Positions 629 to 17,206 of a DNA stretch of 33,850 bases are shown piece after piece; position 1 is the stretch's first letter; each line of letters begins with the position of its first letter. The stretch is taken from positions 1 through 33,850 of the forward strand of contig JAUREI010000022.1 of NCBI GenBank assembly GCA_030827515.1. The letters run 5' to 3'. Made by a program: the position numbers and the translations under genes. A model generated the notes under the pieces. It had not been told where the DNA came from. It worked only from the letters and a program-made list of their open reading frames with translations, and ran no database searches. This stretch comes from Prosthecobacter sp. GTDB lineage: Bacteria > Verrucomicrobiota > Verrucomicrobiia > Verrucomicrobiales > Verrucomicrobiaceae.

Positions 629-649
629 TTTCATCCATCGTGGATGAAA
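629..649 (+). promoter_or_regulatory. Perfect hairpin enclosing the start codon of the PSCyt1/DUF1549 gene
   Basis: TTTCATCCA (629-637), a three-base TCG loop and TGGATGAAA (641-649) form a perfect 9 bp inverted repeat. The ATG start codon (644-646) lies in the 3' arm, so in the mRNA it would be base-paired. No purine-rich ribosome binding site is visible in front of it. It could limit initiation or be a DNA operator; the function is inferred only. Confidence 0.45.
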
Positions 650-3040
650 ACGATCCTTCTGCTCATTGCCGGACTTAGCGCGGATCAAGCCACCTTCTTT
701 GAAGCTCGGATCCGTCCGGTGCTGGCGGAGAAATGCTATGGCTGCCATTCGCAGCAAGCCGGGAAGGTGAAGGGCGGTCTGCTGCTCGACACTCGTGCCG
801 CCACGCTGCAAGGCGGTGACAACGGACCCGCCATCGTTCCCGGCGACGCGGAGGCAAGCCTGCTCATCCAGGCTTTGCGGTGGCAGGATGCCGACACCGG
901 CATGCCGCCGAAGAACAAGGGCGGAAAACTCCCGGACTCCGTGCTGGCCGACTTCGAGCAGTGGGTGAACATGGGGGCCCCAGACCCTCGCGACGGCGAT
1001 TCACCGATCGTGAAAACGGATGCTCCGGAGACTGCGAAATCCTGGTGGGCCTACCAACCGGTGAAACGTCCCGAGGTGCCCAGTCCAAAAAACAGCACCT
1101 GGGCCTTCAACGACATCGACCGCTTCCTGCTGGCCGCCCTGGAGCAGGACGGAAGCGAGCCCGCTGCCGATGTCGATGCCGCCACACTGACGCGCCGCCT
1201 GTATCTTGACCTCACCGGCCTGCCGCCACCTGCCGACGTCGACACTTCCAACCCCGACCGCCTGATCGGCCAGCTTCTCGAGACGCGCCAGTTTGCCGAA
1301 CGCTGGGCGCGGCACTGGCTTGATGTCTCGCGATACGCGGAGACAACCGGGCGGGACGTCAACGTGACCCAGCCGGAGGCCTGGCGGTATCGGGATTACG
1401 TCATCGACGCTTTTGCCAGGGACATGCCCTTCGATCAGTTCATCCGGGAGCAGATCGCCGGTGATCTGCTCCCGGACAGCGGTGATCCCGATCGTGCCAG
1501 CAAACTCATCGCCACCGGCTTCCTCGCCATCGGCCCAAAGGGCTTGAACAACACGGACCCGAGGCAGTTCGCCGTCGATCTGGCCGACGAACAGATCGAC
1601 GCTGTCTCGCAGGCCTTCCTCGGCCTGACGATTTCCTGCGCCCGCTGCCATGATCACAAGTTCGATCCGATCACCCAGCGCGATTACACCGCCCTGGCCG
1701 GCATCTTCCTGAGTTCGGAAACCCGCTTCGGCACGGTGGGCGGTGTGCAGGGCAGAAATGCATCGGCCCTCATCGAGGTGCCGGACTCCGCGGGGTTGCC
1801 CATCCTGAACCGCCGCATGGACCCCTCCGAGTGGTCACGCAAGAAGGCGGAGTTTGATTCGCTCACCGCAAGGCGCGACGCCGCCCTCGCATCACTCCGG
1901 CGCAACCCGGGTGCGGAGGGTCAAATGAGCGGCTTTGAAATGGTCCGCCTGATCACGCGAACCGGCCAGGTCGGCGCGGAGATCGACCGCTTCCACCCGG
2001 ACGGGACCCTCAGGACACGGGTGATGGGCGTGCTGGACAAGCCGGTCACGGCACCGGAACGCGTCGGGAGAAACACGAGTCTCGGCGGGCCGAACAGTCG
2101 TGGAAGGCGGTCGAGCGGCTTCGAGAGCATCGCCGACAGCCCGTTCTTTGTCCGTGGCAGCATCGACAAGGAAAACGGCACGATCCCACGCGGGCTGCCG
2201 GAATTTCTCTCCCGGGGGCAGTCAGCCCCCATGCCGTCGGACAGCAGCGGCCGGCTCGAACTTGCCGAATGGATTGCCTCGCCGGACAACACGCTCACCG
2301 CCCGCGTGATCGTCAACCGAGTCTGGCACTGGATCTGGGGTCGCGGCCTCGTGGAAAGTGTGGACAATTTTGGCGCAAGCGGCTCGACACCTTCCAATCC
2401 GGATCTGCTCGACCACCTCGCCACCGAGTTCGTCACCCACGGCTGGAGCCTGAAAAAGCTCATCCAAACCATTGTCGGCAGCCATGCCTACCGCATGCAG
2501 CGCGAGCCGCGCCGACTCGATGCGGAGACGATTCGCGACGCCATGCTGGCGGCAAGCGGCGCCCTGGACCCGTCGCCCCAGGCCGGCTCCCTGATCGCCA
2601 TGGCGGGTGACGGACCCATCGGCGGCGACCGCTTTCAGGTCATGCCCGAAGAGGCCGTGGCAACGGCAAACGGGCGTTACCGGAGCCTTTACCTGCCGAT
2701 CGCCCGCAGCGTGCAGCCGGAGGTTCTCTCCGTCTTTGACTTTACGGATCCCAACACCGTGATGGGGGCGCGTGAAACAACCCTCGTCGCCCCACAGGCC
2801 CTGTACCTGATGAACAGCGACTTCGTCGCGGAACAGGCCTCCCTCTTGGCGCGGCGCGTCATGGCGGCGGGAGAGGACTTTGAAACACGCTTCCGTCACG
2901 CCACCCAGCTCGTTTTCAGCCGTGCCCCGCGTGCCGACGAACTGGCGGCAGCGCGACGACTCGACCGGGGAGATTCCGCCTCCTGGACCAGCATCTGCCG
3001 CGCCCTGTTCTGCAGTGCCGACTTCCTCTTCCTGCCATGA
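644..3040 (+). CDS. PSCyt1 / DUF1549 / DUF1553 cytochrome-type protein
   Basis: 798 aa. A short hydrophobic start (KTILLLIAGLSA) looks like an export signal. Residues ~20-100 match the Planctomycete cytochrome C domain (PSCyt1) with one haem motif CYGCH at 31-35. DUF1549 spans roughly 150-360 and contains the family's conserved second CxxCH, CARCHDHKFDPI, from residue 332. DUF1553 follows at ~530-780 (RLELAEWIASPDNTLTARV). Such proteins are encoded beside DUF1501 proteins and sulfatases in PVC bacteria; a periplasmic redox or binding role in polymer breakdown is assumed but not proven. No extra carbohydrate-binding domain is visible between DUF1549 and DUF1553, where larger relatives often carry one. 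The stop codon overlaps the next ATG (ATGA), so the two are probably co-translated. The start at 644 is the first Met giving a signal-like N-terminus. Confidence 0.9.
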   Translation: MKTILLLIAGLSADQATFFEARIRPVLAEKCYGCHSQQAGKVKGGLLLDTRAATLQGGDNGPAIVPGDAEASLLIQALRWQDADTGMPPKNKGGKLPDSVLADFEQWVNMGAPDPRDGDSPIVKTDAPETAKSWWAYQPVKRPEVPSPKNSTWAFNDIDRFLLAALEQDGSEPAADVDAATLTRRLYLDLTGLPPPADVDTSNPDRLIGQLLETRQFAERWARHWLDVSRYAETTGRDVNVTQPEAWRYRDYVIDAFARDMPFDQFIREQIAGDLLPDSGDPDRASKLIATGFLAIGPKGLNNTDPRQFAVDLADEQIDAVSQAFLGLTISCARCHDHKFDPITQRDYTALAGIFLSSETRFGTVGGVQGRNASALIEVPDSAGLPILNRRMDPSEWSRKKAEFDSLTARRDAALASLRRNPGAEGQMSGFEMVRLITRTGQVGAEIDRFHPDGTLRTRVMGVLDKPVTAPERVGRNTSLGGPNSRGRRSSGFESIADSPFFVRGSIDKENGTIPRGLPEFLSRGQSAPMPSDSSGRLELAEWIASPDNTLTARVIVNRVWHWIWGRGLVESVDNFGASGSTPSNPDLLDHLATEFVTHGWSLKKLIQTIVGSHAYRMQREPRRLDAETIRDAMLAASGALDPSPQAGSLIAMAGDGPIGGDRFQVMPEEAVATANGRYRSLYLPIARSVQPEVLSVFDFTDPNTVMGARETTLVAPQALYLMNSDFVAEQASLLARRVMAAGEDFETRFRHATQLVFSRAPRADELAAARRLDRGDSASWTSICRALFCSADFLFLP

Positions 3041-4344
3041 ACCGGCGGCATCTTCTACAATCGACACCGCTCGCCTTCGGCTGGCTTGGCCTGTCCGCTC
3101 TGGCGGCCCAGACGGGACCGGCAAAATCCGCTAAACGGGTCATCTTCCTGTGCATGCGCGGTGCCCCCTCGCACGTGGACACCTTCGATTACAAGCCGAG
3201 GCTGGAGACCGATTCCGGCAAGCCTGGCGCCCGCCCCGGCACCCAGTTGCTTGGCTCACGCTGGAAGTTCAGGCGCCACGGTCAAAGCGGGCACTGGATA
3301 TCGGAGTTGTTCCCGCAGTTGGCGACCTGCGCCGATGATCTTTGTGTTCTGAATGGCATGCAGACCGACCTGCCCGCCCATCCGCAGGCCTACCTGAAAA
3401 TGCACACCGGCAGCTCCCAGTTTGTGCGCCCCTCGCTCGGGGCCTGGACCCACTACGGGCTGGGCTCGCTGAATGACAACCTGCCGGGATTCATCACCAT
3501 CACACCCGCGAGTGGCTTCGGCGGAGCGCAAAACTACGGCAGCGCGTTCCTTCCCGCACAGCATCAGGGAACGCGCATCGGCGCGGACAAACGCCCCATC
3601 ACCGGCGCCGAAGTGGCCAACCTGCGTCCCAAGATCGACCCTGCCGGGCAACGCGCGGAACTCGATCTGGTGCAGTCGCTCAACCGCTCGCACCTGACCC
3701 TGCACGCGGATCCTCAGGTCGAGGGGCTCATTGAATCCTACGAACTCGCTTACCGCATGCAGAGTGAAATGCCCGCGGTAATGGATCTGACCCGGGAAAC
3801 CGAGGCCACCCGGCAGCTCTATGGCATTGGCGAGACGGTGACGGATGATTTTGGCCGCAAATGCCTTCTGGCCAGACGCCTGGTGGAAGCCGGCGTCCGC
3901 TTCGTCGAAATCACTCATGGCGACTGGGATCACCACAGTGATCTCGGCGAAAAACTGCCCGCGAGCTGCGCGGGTGTCGACAAACCGCTGTGCGGCCTGC
4001 TGACCGACCTCAAGGCACGCGGCCTGCTCAAGGACACGCTTGTCATCTGGGGAGGTGAATTTGGCCGCACACCGCATGTCGAGGGCAATGACGGCCGGGA
4101 CCACAATGTCAAGGCCTTCACCCTCTGGATGGCCGGTGGCGGCGTGAAGGCCGGCGTCTCCCACGGGGCGAGCGACGACCACGGCTACGAAGCGGTGTCC
4201 GGCATCGTGACGATCCCGGACTGGCATGCGACGATCCTGCATCTCCTGGGACTCGACCATGAAAAGCTCACCTACCGGCACGCGGGCCGGAACTTTCGGC
4301 TGACCGACATCCACGGCAGCGTGGTGCATGACATTGTGGGCTGA
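3037..4344 (+). CDS. DUF1501 family protein (Tat-exported)
   Basis: 435 aa. The N-terminus MNRRHLLQSTPLAFGWLGL has a twin-arginine followed by a hydrophobic stretch ending near ALAAQ, pointing to Tat export. The family hallmarks MRGAPSHVDTFDYKP (residues ~41-55), a central VRFVEITHGDWDHH and a late WGGEFGRTPHVEGNDGRDHN are all present. DUF1501 belongs to the alkaline phosphatase/sulfatase-like superfamily; no member activity is firmly assigned as far as I know. It starts inside the stop of the PSCyt1 gene and pairs with it functionally, as is usual for this pair in Planctomycetes and Verrucomicrobia. Length and ends look complete. Confidence 0.92.
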   Translation: MNRRHLLQSTPLAFGWLGLSALAAQTGPAKSAKRVIFLCMRGAPSHVDTFDYKPRLETDSGKPGARPGTQLLGSRWKFRRHGQSGHWISELFPQLATCADDLCVLNGMQTDLPAHPQAYLKMHTGSSQFVRPSLGAWTHYGLGSLNDNLPGFITITPASGFGGAQNYGSAFLPAQHQGTRIGADKRPITGAEVANLRPKIDPAGQRAELDLVQSLNRSHLTLHADPQVEGLIESYELAYRMQSEMPAVMDLTRETEATRQLYGIGETVTDDFGRKCLLARRLVEAGVRFVEITHGDWDHHSDLGEKLPASCAGVDKPLCGLLTDLKARGLLKDTLVIWGGEFGRTPHVEGNDGRDHNVKAFTLWMAGGGVKAGVSHGASDDHGYEAVSGIVTIPDWHATILHLLGLDHEKLTYRHAGRNFRLTDIHGSVVHDIVG

Positions 4345-14858: not shown

Positions 14859-14929
14859 GTTCCACGATGCCCGCCAAGCCGTCGGCCTGCAAGATTGACT
14901 CGCTGGCGGCGCTCGGGTTGACTGACGGC

Positions 14930-17206
14930 ATGCGTCCGCTGCTCCTCGCCGCTCTGCTCACCTGCCCCGTCGCAGCCGAGGTTTTCGACCCGCCTGCCCT
15001 TCAGGCGCTGGACGGTCTGCTCAAAACCGCCGTGGCAGACCGCACACCGCCCGGGACCGTGCTCTGGCTGGAACGAAGCGGTCAGACCCACACCTTCGTC
15101 GCAGGTGCGCGCGCCTTGGTGCCAGAGCGCGAGCCCATGACCCTCGACACCGTCTTCGATGCCGCCTCGCTCACCAAGGTCGTTGCCACCCTGCCCTGCG
15201 TGCTCGCGCTCCAGGAGGAGGGACGGTTGCGGATTGACGACCCCGTCACCCGCCACCTGCCGGAATTCACCGGTGGCGACGAGGTTCTCCTCCACCACCT
15301 GCTGACCCACACTTCAGGGATGCCGGCCGGCGTCCCCCGGGAACCCCCATGGAGTGGCCATGCGGAGGGCGTGCGCCGGGCCCTGGCCCTGCGTCCAGAG
15401 ATGCCCCCGGACACCTTGTTTCGCTACAGCGACGTCAATTTCATCCTGCTTGGCGAGATCGTTCGGCGCGCCAGCGGCAGACCGCTTGATGCCTTTGCGA
15501 GCCAGCGCATTTTCGCGCCGCTGGGCATGGATTCGACCCGGTTCAATCCTCCCACCGACTGGCAATCCCGCATTGCACCGACCGAAAGGGATGAGAATGG
15601 CGTTCTTCTGCGGGGTGTCGTCCATGACCCCACCGCCCGGCGCATGGGCGGTGTCGCCGGCCATGCCGGTCTGTTCACCTCGGCGGCCGACCTCGCCCGC
15701 TACGCCAGGATGATCCTCGGGGGCGGCGAACTGGACGGCGTGCGCGTGCTGCAAGCCGCCAGCCTGCGGGCAACACAATCGGTGCAGACACCGCCCACCC
15801 TCGTCGAACGCCGCGGCTACGGCTGGGATCTCGACAGTCCGTTCAGCCGGCCACGCGGCCGGCTTTTCCCGCCCGGCTCCTTCGGCCACACCGGCTTCAC
15901 CGGCACCAGCCTGTGGCTCGATCCCTACTCGCAAAGCTTCGCGATCTTCCTGAGCTCGCGCCTGCATCCCCAGGGTGGCGGCAGCGTGCGCGACCTCTAC
16001 GAGGCGGTCGGAACGGCGGCCGCGCAAGCCCTCAGGGACGTGGACTGGTCCCGTGCGCCGGCGACACCAAGACCACGCCAGGCCAACGAACGTCCCTCCG
16101 TGCTCAACGGCATCGATGTGCTGGAGCGCGAGGGCTTCAAACCGCTGGCCGGGTTGAGCATCGGTCTGATCACCAACCAAACCGGCATCACCGCGCAGCG
16201 GGACAGCACGATCGACCGGCTCGCCAGGGCGTCAGGCGTGAAACTGCGCGCCCTGTTCAGCCCCGAACACGGCATCCGCGGCGAACTCGATCAGGAACAC
16301 ATCCGCGACGGCAAGGACGCGAAAACCGGGCTTCCCATCTACAGTCTCTACGGCGAGCACAGGGCGCCCACGGCGCAGCAACTGGCTGGCATCGATGCCC
16401 TGGTCTTTGACATCCAGGACATTGGCTGTCGCTTCTACACCTACATTTCCACCCTGCGCCTCTGCTTGGAGGCGGCGGCCGCGCGCGGCCTGCCGTTCTT
16501 TGTGCTCGACCGCGTCAATCCGGTCGGTGGCGTGGCAGTCGAGGGACCGGTCCTGCTCGACAAGGAGGCTTTCACCGCCACCCACGCCATCGCCATCCGC
16601 CATGGCATGACCGCCGGTGAACTGGCCCGGATGATGAACGCCGAACGGCGCATCGGCGCCGACCTGCGCGTCATCCCCGTCGAAGGCTGGCGGCGCGAAC
16701 TGCTCTTTGATGCAACCGGCCTGCCCTGGCTCAATCCCTCGCCCAACATGCGCACCCTGACCGCGGCCCTGCTCTACCCGGGGATCGGACTGTTGGAATT
16801 CTCCATCAGCGTCGGCCGCGGCACCGACACCCCCTTCGAAATCCTCGGGGCCCCCTACATCGACGACCTGCGCCTGGCCCATGAACTGAACCACCTCGGG
16901 CTGCCCGGACTGCGCTTCCTGCCGGTCCGCTTCAAACCGACCGCCAGCGTCTTCAAGGATCAGGCCTGCGCGGGCGTGCGCATGATTGTCACCGACCGCG
17001 AGCGGCTCGAACCGGTGTGCACGGGCCTGGCCATCGCCGCCACCCTGCAGCGCCTCCATCCCGGCCAGTTCGACGTCGCCAAGGTTGGCACCCTGCTCAA
17101 CCATGCCGGCCTGCTGGAGGCCTTGCGGAAAGGCAGACCCCTGCACTGGCAGGACGAAACGTCCGCCTTCCGCGCCCGGCGCGCCGCCTTCCTGCTCTAC
17201 GATTGA
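14930..17206 (+). CDS. Fusion of beta-lactamase-like serine hydrolase and NamZ (DUF1343)
   Basis: 758 aa from the ATG at 14930, which gives a short signal peptide (MRPLLLAALLTCPVAAE). Residues ~20-375 are a class C beta-lactamase/serine hydrolase domain: SxxK in DAASLTKVV (Ser80, Lys83), the second motif YSDVN (Tyr167) and FGHTGFTGTS near 319 as third motif. From ~390 to the end is DUF1343, the exo-beta-N-acetylmuramidase NamZ family: GLSIGLITNQTGIT, FSPEHGIRGELD, VFDIQDIGCRFYTY, FVLDRVNPVGG, WLNPSPNMRT and EFSISVGRGTDTPFE. In Bacillus subtilis the separate neighbours AmiE (beta-lactamase-like amidase) and NamZ both act on peptidoglycan fragments. This protein therefore probably strips and trims muropeptides outside the cytoplasm. 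The uracil salvage gene follows 45 bases later. Confidence 0.92.
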   Translation: MRPLLLAALLTCPVAAEVFDPPALQALDGLLKTAVADRTPPGTVLWLERSGQTHTFVAGARALVPEREPMTLDTVFDAASLTKVVATLPCVLALQEEGRLRIDDPVTRHLPEFTGGDEVLLHHLLTHTSGMPAGVPREPPWSGHAEGVRRALALRPEMPPDTLFRYSDVNFILLGEIVRRASGRPLDAFASQRIFAPLGMDSTRFNPPTDWQSRIAPTERDENGVLLRGVVHDPTARRMGGVAGHAGLFTSAADLARYARMILGGGELDGVRVLQAASLRATQSVQTPPTLVERRGYGWDLDSPFSRPRGRLFPPGSFGHTGFTGTSLWLDPYSQSFAIFLSSRLHPQGGGSVRDLYEAVGTAAAQALRDVDWSRAPATPRPRQANERPSVLNGIDVLEREGFKPLAGLSIGLITNQTGITAQRDSTIDRLARASGVKLRALFSPEHGIRGELDQEHIRDGKDAKTGLPIYSLYGEHRAPTAQQLAGIDALVFDIQDIGCRFYTYISTLRLCLEAAAARGLPFFVLDRVNPVGGVAVEGPVLLDKEAFTATHAIAIRHGMTAGELARMMNAERRIGADLRVIPVEGWRRELLFDATGLPWLNPSPNMRTLTAALLYPGIGLLEFSISVGRGTDTPFEILGAPYIDDLRLAHELNHLGLPGLRFLPVRFKPTASVFKDQACAGVRMIVTDRERLEPVCTGLAIAATLQRLHPGQFDVAKVGTLLNHAGLLEALRKGRPLHWQDETSAFRARRAAFLLYD

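Follow-up and report, generated by a model that had tools for sequence, protein, structure and literature searches.

A serine hydrolase joined to a NamZ domain in Prosthecobacter and its probable role in murein fragment salvage

The window, a stretch of 33,850 nucleotides from Prosthecobacter sp. (contig JAUREI010000022.1), encodes a serine hydrolase domain and a NamZ domain in a single polypeptide, and the question that it raises is what such a protein does. The same two domain types make up AmiE and NamZ of Bacillus subtilis (YbbE and YbbC), but these are products of separate genes in one cluster, whereas in the window there is one polypeptide and no cluster. In its founding paper NamZ is reportedly an exo-muramidase (GH171) that requires peptide-free MurNAc, and its family is said to occur mainly in Bacteroidetes. 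The accessible text of PMC5061867 gives the B. subtilis cluster as murQ-murR-murP-amiE-nagZ-ybbC, gives the E. coli cluster as well, and has AmiE and NagZ acting in sequence in extracellular muropeptide breakdown.

The fusion gene (14930-17206, plus strand) is an open frame without internal stop that encodes 758 amino acids, and its GC content by codon position is coding-like. A chance ORF is excluded because a near-full-length copy is found in 31 of the 35 genomes of the genus, its own included. The exceptions are G017 and G028, which have broken or cut copies, and G027 and G032, which are without a close copy. In G028 two overlapping frames take the place of the single one (L046:5052-7294), through either a frameshift or an assembly error. 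An in-frame ATG upstream, at 14867, would add 21 residues, although the hydrophobic leader begins at 14930. This leader, judged by eye, resembles a signal peptide of residues 1-17 (MRPLLLAALLTCPVAA/E; 14930-14980) and has low pLDDT in block 1-10 of the structural model described below. The serine hydrolase domain, PF00144, spans residues 28-357 (15011-16000; 221.8 bits against a cut-off of 27) and has the S12 catalytic residues (SxxK, Y and H/K-T-G) of an AmiE- or YfeW-like hydrolase, namely the nucleophile and base motif S80-L-T-K83 (15167-15178), Y166-S-D168 (15425-15433) and, at the KTG position, H320-T-G322 (15887-15895). A linker of residues 376-390 (16055-16099), with the lowest internal pLDDT (59, block 381-390), leads to NamZ_N, PF07075 (residues 411-610, 16160-16759; 267.3 bits, cut-off 26.9), which contains P445-E446-H447-G448, and to NamZ_C, PF20732 (residues 614-757, 16769-17200; 123.3 bits, cut-off 25). 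With both Pfam domains above their curated cut-offs, the conserved PEHG and the fold, the C-terminal half belongs to NamZ (GH171), an exo-beta-N-acetylmuramidase family. S80, K83, Y166, D168, H320, G322 and E446-H447-G448 are invariant across 56 aligned fusion sequences (the window and 55 of 80 named loci), and in other fusions 6-61 residues lie between the BLAST-aligned domain ends.

An AlphaFold2 model of the fusion shows high confidence inside the domains and a weak linker around 381-390. The earlier note had proposed a structure prediction of the domain interface; the model gives confident folds for both domains (mean pLDDT 92.1) but not the interface, since a pTM of 0.70 leaves their mutual placement loose. 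Residues 387-758 match the DUF1343 structure 4k05 with a Z of 48.3 (VIA-align) and the NamZ half matches 4jja with a Z of 38.3; both structures, from Bacteroides fragilis, share the fold of the NamZ half but are unfused and have proline at the position of R608. Residues 15-375 match S12-fold esterases, acyltransferases and class C enzymes with Z values of about 33-41 (Foldseek, VIA-align). Pfam, invariant motifs and confident folds agree with the earlier description of an intact SxxK/YSD/HTG hydrolase and a complete DUF1343 domain in one protein.

The substrate of the N-terminal domain is the less direct part of the argument. Its kinship to the amidase family was gauged by E. coli YfeW, standing in for B. 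subtilis AmiE. Among E. coli K-12 proteins the domain scores 134 bits against YfeW (33% identity, 310 columns), 69.7 against AmpC and 68.2 against AmpH. D77, VHD, GHAGLF and GHTGxTGT are common to YfeW and most fusions, and are absent from AmpC, from AmpH and from the eight generic S12 proteins used for comparison. YfeW is a single-domain protein, unlike the fusion, but its gene lies directly after murQ-murP in E. coli and so forms part of a MurNAc operon. In the S12 tree the fusions, YfeW and MurQ-linked acidobacterial and haloarchaeal hydrolases fall on one side of a branch with SH-aLRT 93, several of these lineages, including YfeW and the haloarchaeal proteins, having long branches; all tree support values given here are from quick searches. 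By analogy, we infer that the domain would be a MurNAc-L-Ala amidase.

Three other activities were weighed for this domain. Class C beta-lactamases have the motifs YxN and KTG. Both the name of PF00144 and the class C fold would suit a beta-lactamase fused with a glycosidase, in which the N-terminal domain gives protection against beta-lactams. However, the class C model NF033085 gives 55 bits against a cut-off of 415, and the domain has YSD and H320TG where AmpC has a YAN-type motif and KTG. On these grounds class C membership was rejected, and a protective role is highly improbable. A second reading makes the domain a DD-carboxypeptidase or endopeptidase of PBP4B or AmpH type that trims stem peptides or cross-links, so that the fusion loosens muropeptides without taking off the entire peptide. 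The PBP4B equivalog NF002968 is the best NCBIfam match, at 105.6 bits against a cut-off of 385, and the nearest named relative, YfeW, is annotated as penicillin-binding protein 4B, not as an amidase, which counts against the amidase reading. Partial trimming would leave MurNAc substituted, a state that reportedly blocks NamZ. Moreover, the domain does not have the motifs of AmpH and AmpC in common. The accessible text of PMC5061867 cites a DD-carboxypeptidase title for YfeW, but also places the amidase gene amiE beside nagZ and ybbC in B. subtilis. Overall we regard the trimming activity as fairly unlikely. The third candidate is an esterase that prepares muramic acid, or a different glycan, for NamZ, for instance by removing its O-acetyl or other acyl substituents. 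The closest solved relatives of the domain are esterases of family VIII type or acyltransferases (EstG, 6kjp), which again counts against an amidase, but the S12 fold is silent on substrate, and the YfeW-type motifs together with nearby MurQ, kinase and NagZ genes favour MurNAc release. An esterase is therefore improbable in our estimation.

Gene neighbours were searched with phmmer (E<1e-12) within about 5 kb of the fusion at 80 named loci, the best 80 of 585. An SSS symporter lies near the fusion at 16 of these best 80, MurQ at 9, GH3/NagZ at 5 and a BadF-type kinase at 3. Linkage to MurNAc catabolism, taken as the presence nearby of MurQ, kinase or NagZ, is seen at 14 of the best 80 of 585 other loci (13 of the 55 that have more than 3 kb on both sides) and not in the window itself. 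None of the three is nearby at the remaining 66 of these best 80, which counts against the salvage reading. At 15 control loci, set around S12 paralogues, the same queries found neither MurQ nor kinase nor NagZ, the only matches being one SDR and one amino-acid permease. At L104 the gene order on one strand is symporter (SSS)-murQ-fusion-NagZ, and at L142 kinase, MurQ and symporter genes accompany the fusion and a second NamZ; the identity of MurQ was confirmed by NCBIfam at L104, L117 and L142. Among 387 Verrucomicrobiota genomes, 18 have the fusion or its N-terminal domain, and 11 of these also have a MurQ match (E<=1e-30), as do 43 of the 369 others (Fisher p 2e-6, kinship ignored). The MurQ match is missing in the other 7 of the 18, which also counts against salvage. 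At five acidobacterial loci (L115, L117, L123, L143 and L151; about 2.3-4.9 kb) murQ is accompanied by another S12 hydrolase gene, this one unfused and divergent from the fusion.

Two Halorussus plasmids have the corresponding genes as separate neighbours. The clusters in L065:7263-15254 (NZ_CP044525.1) and L066:6633-15198 (NZ_CP100402.1) comprise AnmK, an S12 hydrolase, an unknown protein, NamZ and NagZ, with ABC transporter genes nearby and, in L066, a PGRP-type amidase. Since haloarchaea are not known to have murein, the cluster looks like one for the consumption of bacterial cell walls. A literature search on it gave nothing to the point among the matches listed. GH171 is mentioned for one haloarchaeal genome in a 2025 paper, whose accessible text does not speak of a murein cluster (PMC12343721). 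Neighbours in other phyla, the YfeW-type motifs and these separate haloarchaeal genes lend support to the link with muropeptide and MurNAc salvage that the earlier note had drawn.

We propose that the fusion is probably a secreted AmiE-type MurNAc-L-Ala amidase combined with an exo-N-acetylmuramidase for the salvage of murein fragments; its amidase specificity, secretion, cleavage order and uptake route are what we infer. The N-terminal S12-type domain (Ser80/Lys83/Tyr166) would cut the MurNAc-L-Ala bond of peptide-bearing MurNAc, as B. subtilis AmiE does, and the C-terminal NamZ domain would then release the bared MurNAc from the non-reducing chain end. MurNAc would be taken up, in some lineages by a sodium symporter, then phosphorylated by a BadF-type kinase and the product opened by MurQ, two steps that may be carried out by one fused protein in this genome. 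The same chemistry could also serve the turnover of the cell's own wall, by recycling or remodelling, in place of scavenging foreign murein, a reading that overlaps with the one proposed here. The fusion stands alone among unrelated genes in the window and has been retained by 31 of the genus's 35 genomes, which would suit such a use, but the symporter, MurQ and kinase genes adjacent to it in other phyla favour a catabolic one, and we consider own-wall turnover possible though doubtful.

In the window the fusion gene is flanked by a TatD-type gene on the opposite strand and by upp and a gene for a cNMP-binding protein. Further genes include a DUF1549/DUF1553-DUF1501 pair, a sugar-isomerase-like protein and a two-component pair, among others. 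No MurNAc genes lie beside the fusion in the window, which counts against salvage. Scans for promoters and terminators found no more than chance would give (no promoter-like site; 2 terminator-like sites against a mean of 2.4), and a local operon with upp or tatD was rejected on these scans and for want of any murein link. The DUF1549/DUF1553 and DUF1501 genes (644-4344) form a pair of planctomycete or verrucomicrobial type with a cytochrome-like PSCyt1 domain.

The fusion is not confined to this group. In Verrucomicrobiota, 18 of 387 genomes have a match (E<=1e-100), which is nearly full-length in 13 and confined to the N-terminal domain in 5. The best 80 of 585 all have the fusion, a few clipped by contig ends, and because the scan design favoured full-length fusions their counts are not prevalences. 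They comprise 45 loci from Acidobacteriota, 26 from Verrucomicrobiota, 4 from Planctomycetota, 2 from Pseudomonadota and one each from Armatimonadota, Nitrospirota and Thermodesulfobacteriota, numbers that are approximate because the phylum labels of some MAGs are doubtful: L080 and L090, labelled Acidobacteria, and L083, labelled Gammaproteobacteria, group with Verrucomicrobiota in both trees. One-piece copies with 40-44% identity occur in four plasmid records from Burkholderia and Cupriavidus. The plasmid copies of these genera at L068:5850-7878 and L069:5881-7954 follow genes for a polysaccharide deacetylase and a putative glycosidase, the latter with DUF4015 in L068. A NamZ domain-containing protein of Burkholderia savannae with the same two domains, about 43% identical, likewise adjoins DUF4015 and polysaccharide-deacetylase genes. 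A lineage-specific fusion was therefore rejected, the architecture being present in Verrucomicrobiota, Acidobacteriota and Planctomycetota and sparsely in other phyla, and the phrase 'in this lineage' used of it in the earlier note proved too narrow.

Nor does the architecture stand as the new Rosetta-stone case that it had been taken for, since it was already tabulated in 2008 and occurs in several phyla. In the accessible part of that survey the same two domains in one protein, DDPept-DUF1343, are listed for 1 of 254 S12 proteins (YP_439122.1; PMC2605481 Table 3), a table row without a function test that section 31, as accessible, does not discuss. This row is what the literature searched, with most subscription journals outside its coverage, holds on the fusion, and it comes with no activity data. 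The architecture is real, intact, widespread and previously tabulated; it is not new. RmNag3 of Rhodothermus marinus resembles the fusion in joining an exo-glycosidase for amino-sugar glycans to an S12-type domain, but it has GH3 instead of NamZ and the reverse domain order, with the beta-lactamase domain at the C terminus; in the accessible text its authors suggest a link to peptidoglycan turnover (PMC6987092). The fusion and its neighbours offer a testable function for a type of protein found in many soil and freshwater genomes, where its annotation goes no further than serine hydrolase or NamZ-domain protein. On this evidence murein salvage of the exo-lytic kind would be widespread in Acidobacteriota, Verrucomicrobiota and Planctomycetota, and E. 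coli YfeW, encoded in the MurNAc operon, becomes a candidate amidase.

Of 59 NamZ domains placed in a tree, the 41 from fusions group in a single clade (SH-aLRT 95) that also encloses two unfused domains, and the N-domain tree shows a similar nesting of unfused copies among the fusions. This fits one old fusion followed by later fissions. Four single-domain genes nested inside the fusion clades (L042:4861-6087, L060:1471-2610, L061:1462-2598 and L062:1468-2658) are apparent fissions in which a single domain, either NamZ or the hydrolase, is left at that locus. Evolutionary distances of the two halves correlate over the 41 fusions, with a Mantel r of 0.66 that none of 2000 permutations reached. 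At position 608 (16751-16753 in the window) arginine is found in 43 of 43 members of this clade, the two nested domains included, compared with 14 prolines and no arginine in 16 other unfused NamZ, a small comparison set of which 8 are haloarchaeal; 4k05 and 4jja also align with proline there. Position 628 is valine in 41 of the 43, and among the same 16 it is glutamate in 12 and valine in 1. The R608 change specific to the clade was not found in the literature searched. It is tempting to suppose, with rather more doubt than belief, that the fused NamZ is a distinct co-adapted subfamily, in which after one ancient fusion the glycosidase half changed (R608 for P, V628 for E) to take the substrate left by the amidase domain. 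One secreted protein would then work its way along glycan ends that still bear peptide, its two cuts being coupled, and in this genome the fusion of the cytosolic kinase to MurQ would make the pathway more compact still. Another contig of the same genome carries a second, unfused NamZ.

The genome itself (4.05 Mb, 315 contigs) encodes candidates for the later steps. Its best MurQ match is a 624-residue protein (L152:1459-3333, minus strand; G000 contig C224) with a BcrAD_BadFG kinase domain at 14-279 and the MurQ model NF003915 at 336-607, that is, a kinase-MurQ fusion. The MurQ part scores 335.6 bits with this subfamily model (cut-off 168) and 284.6 with the stricter TIGR00274, just under the cut-off of 302. 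Open frames of ~620-640 aa at the MurQ match suggest, from their length, that several relatives may have the same fusion, its domain content being established in this genome only. AnmK had no match in any of 19 genomes of the genus, this one included (0 of 19). The AnmK route was rejected for the genus, and phosphorylation by the BadF-type kinase is preferred for that reason. A literature search on a kinase-MurQ fusion gave nothing to the point among the matches listed. Six other species of the genus have a weak MurQ match only. In two of these species (L186:4244-5890 and L187:4476-6122) there is a 548-residue GKRP-like protein, related to MurQ but below the MurQ cut-offs, whose gene adjoins those for a TPP enzyme and a chorismate-binding protein.
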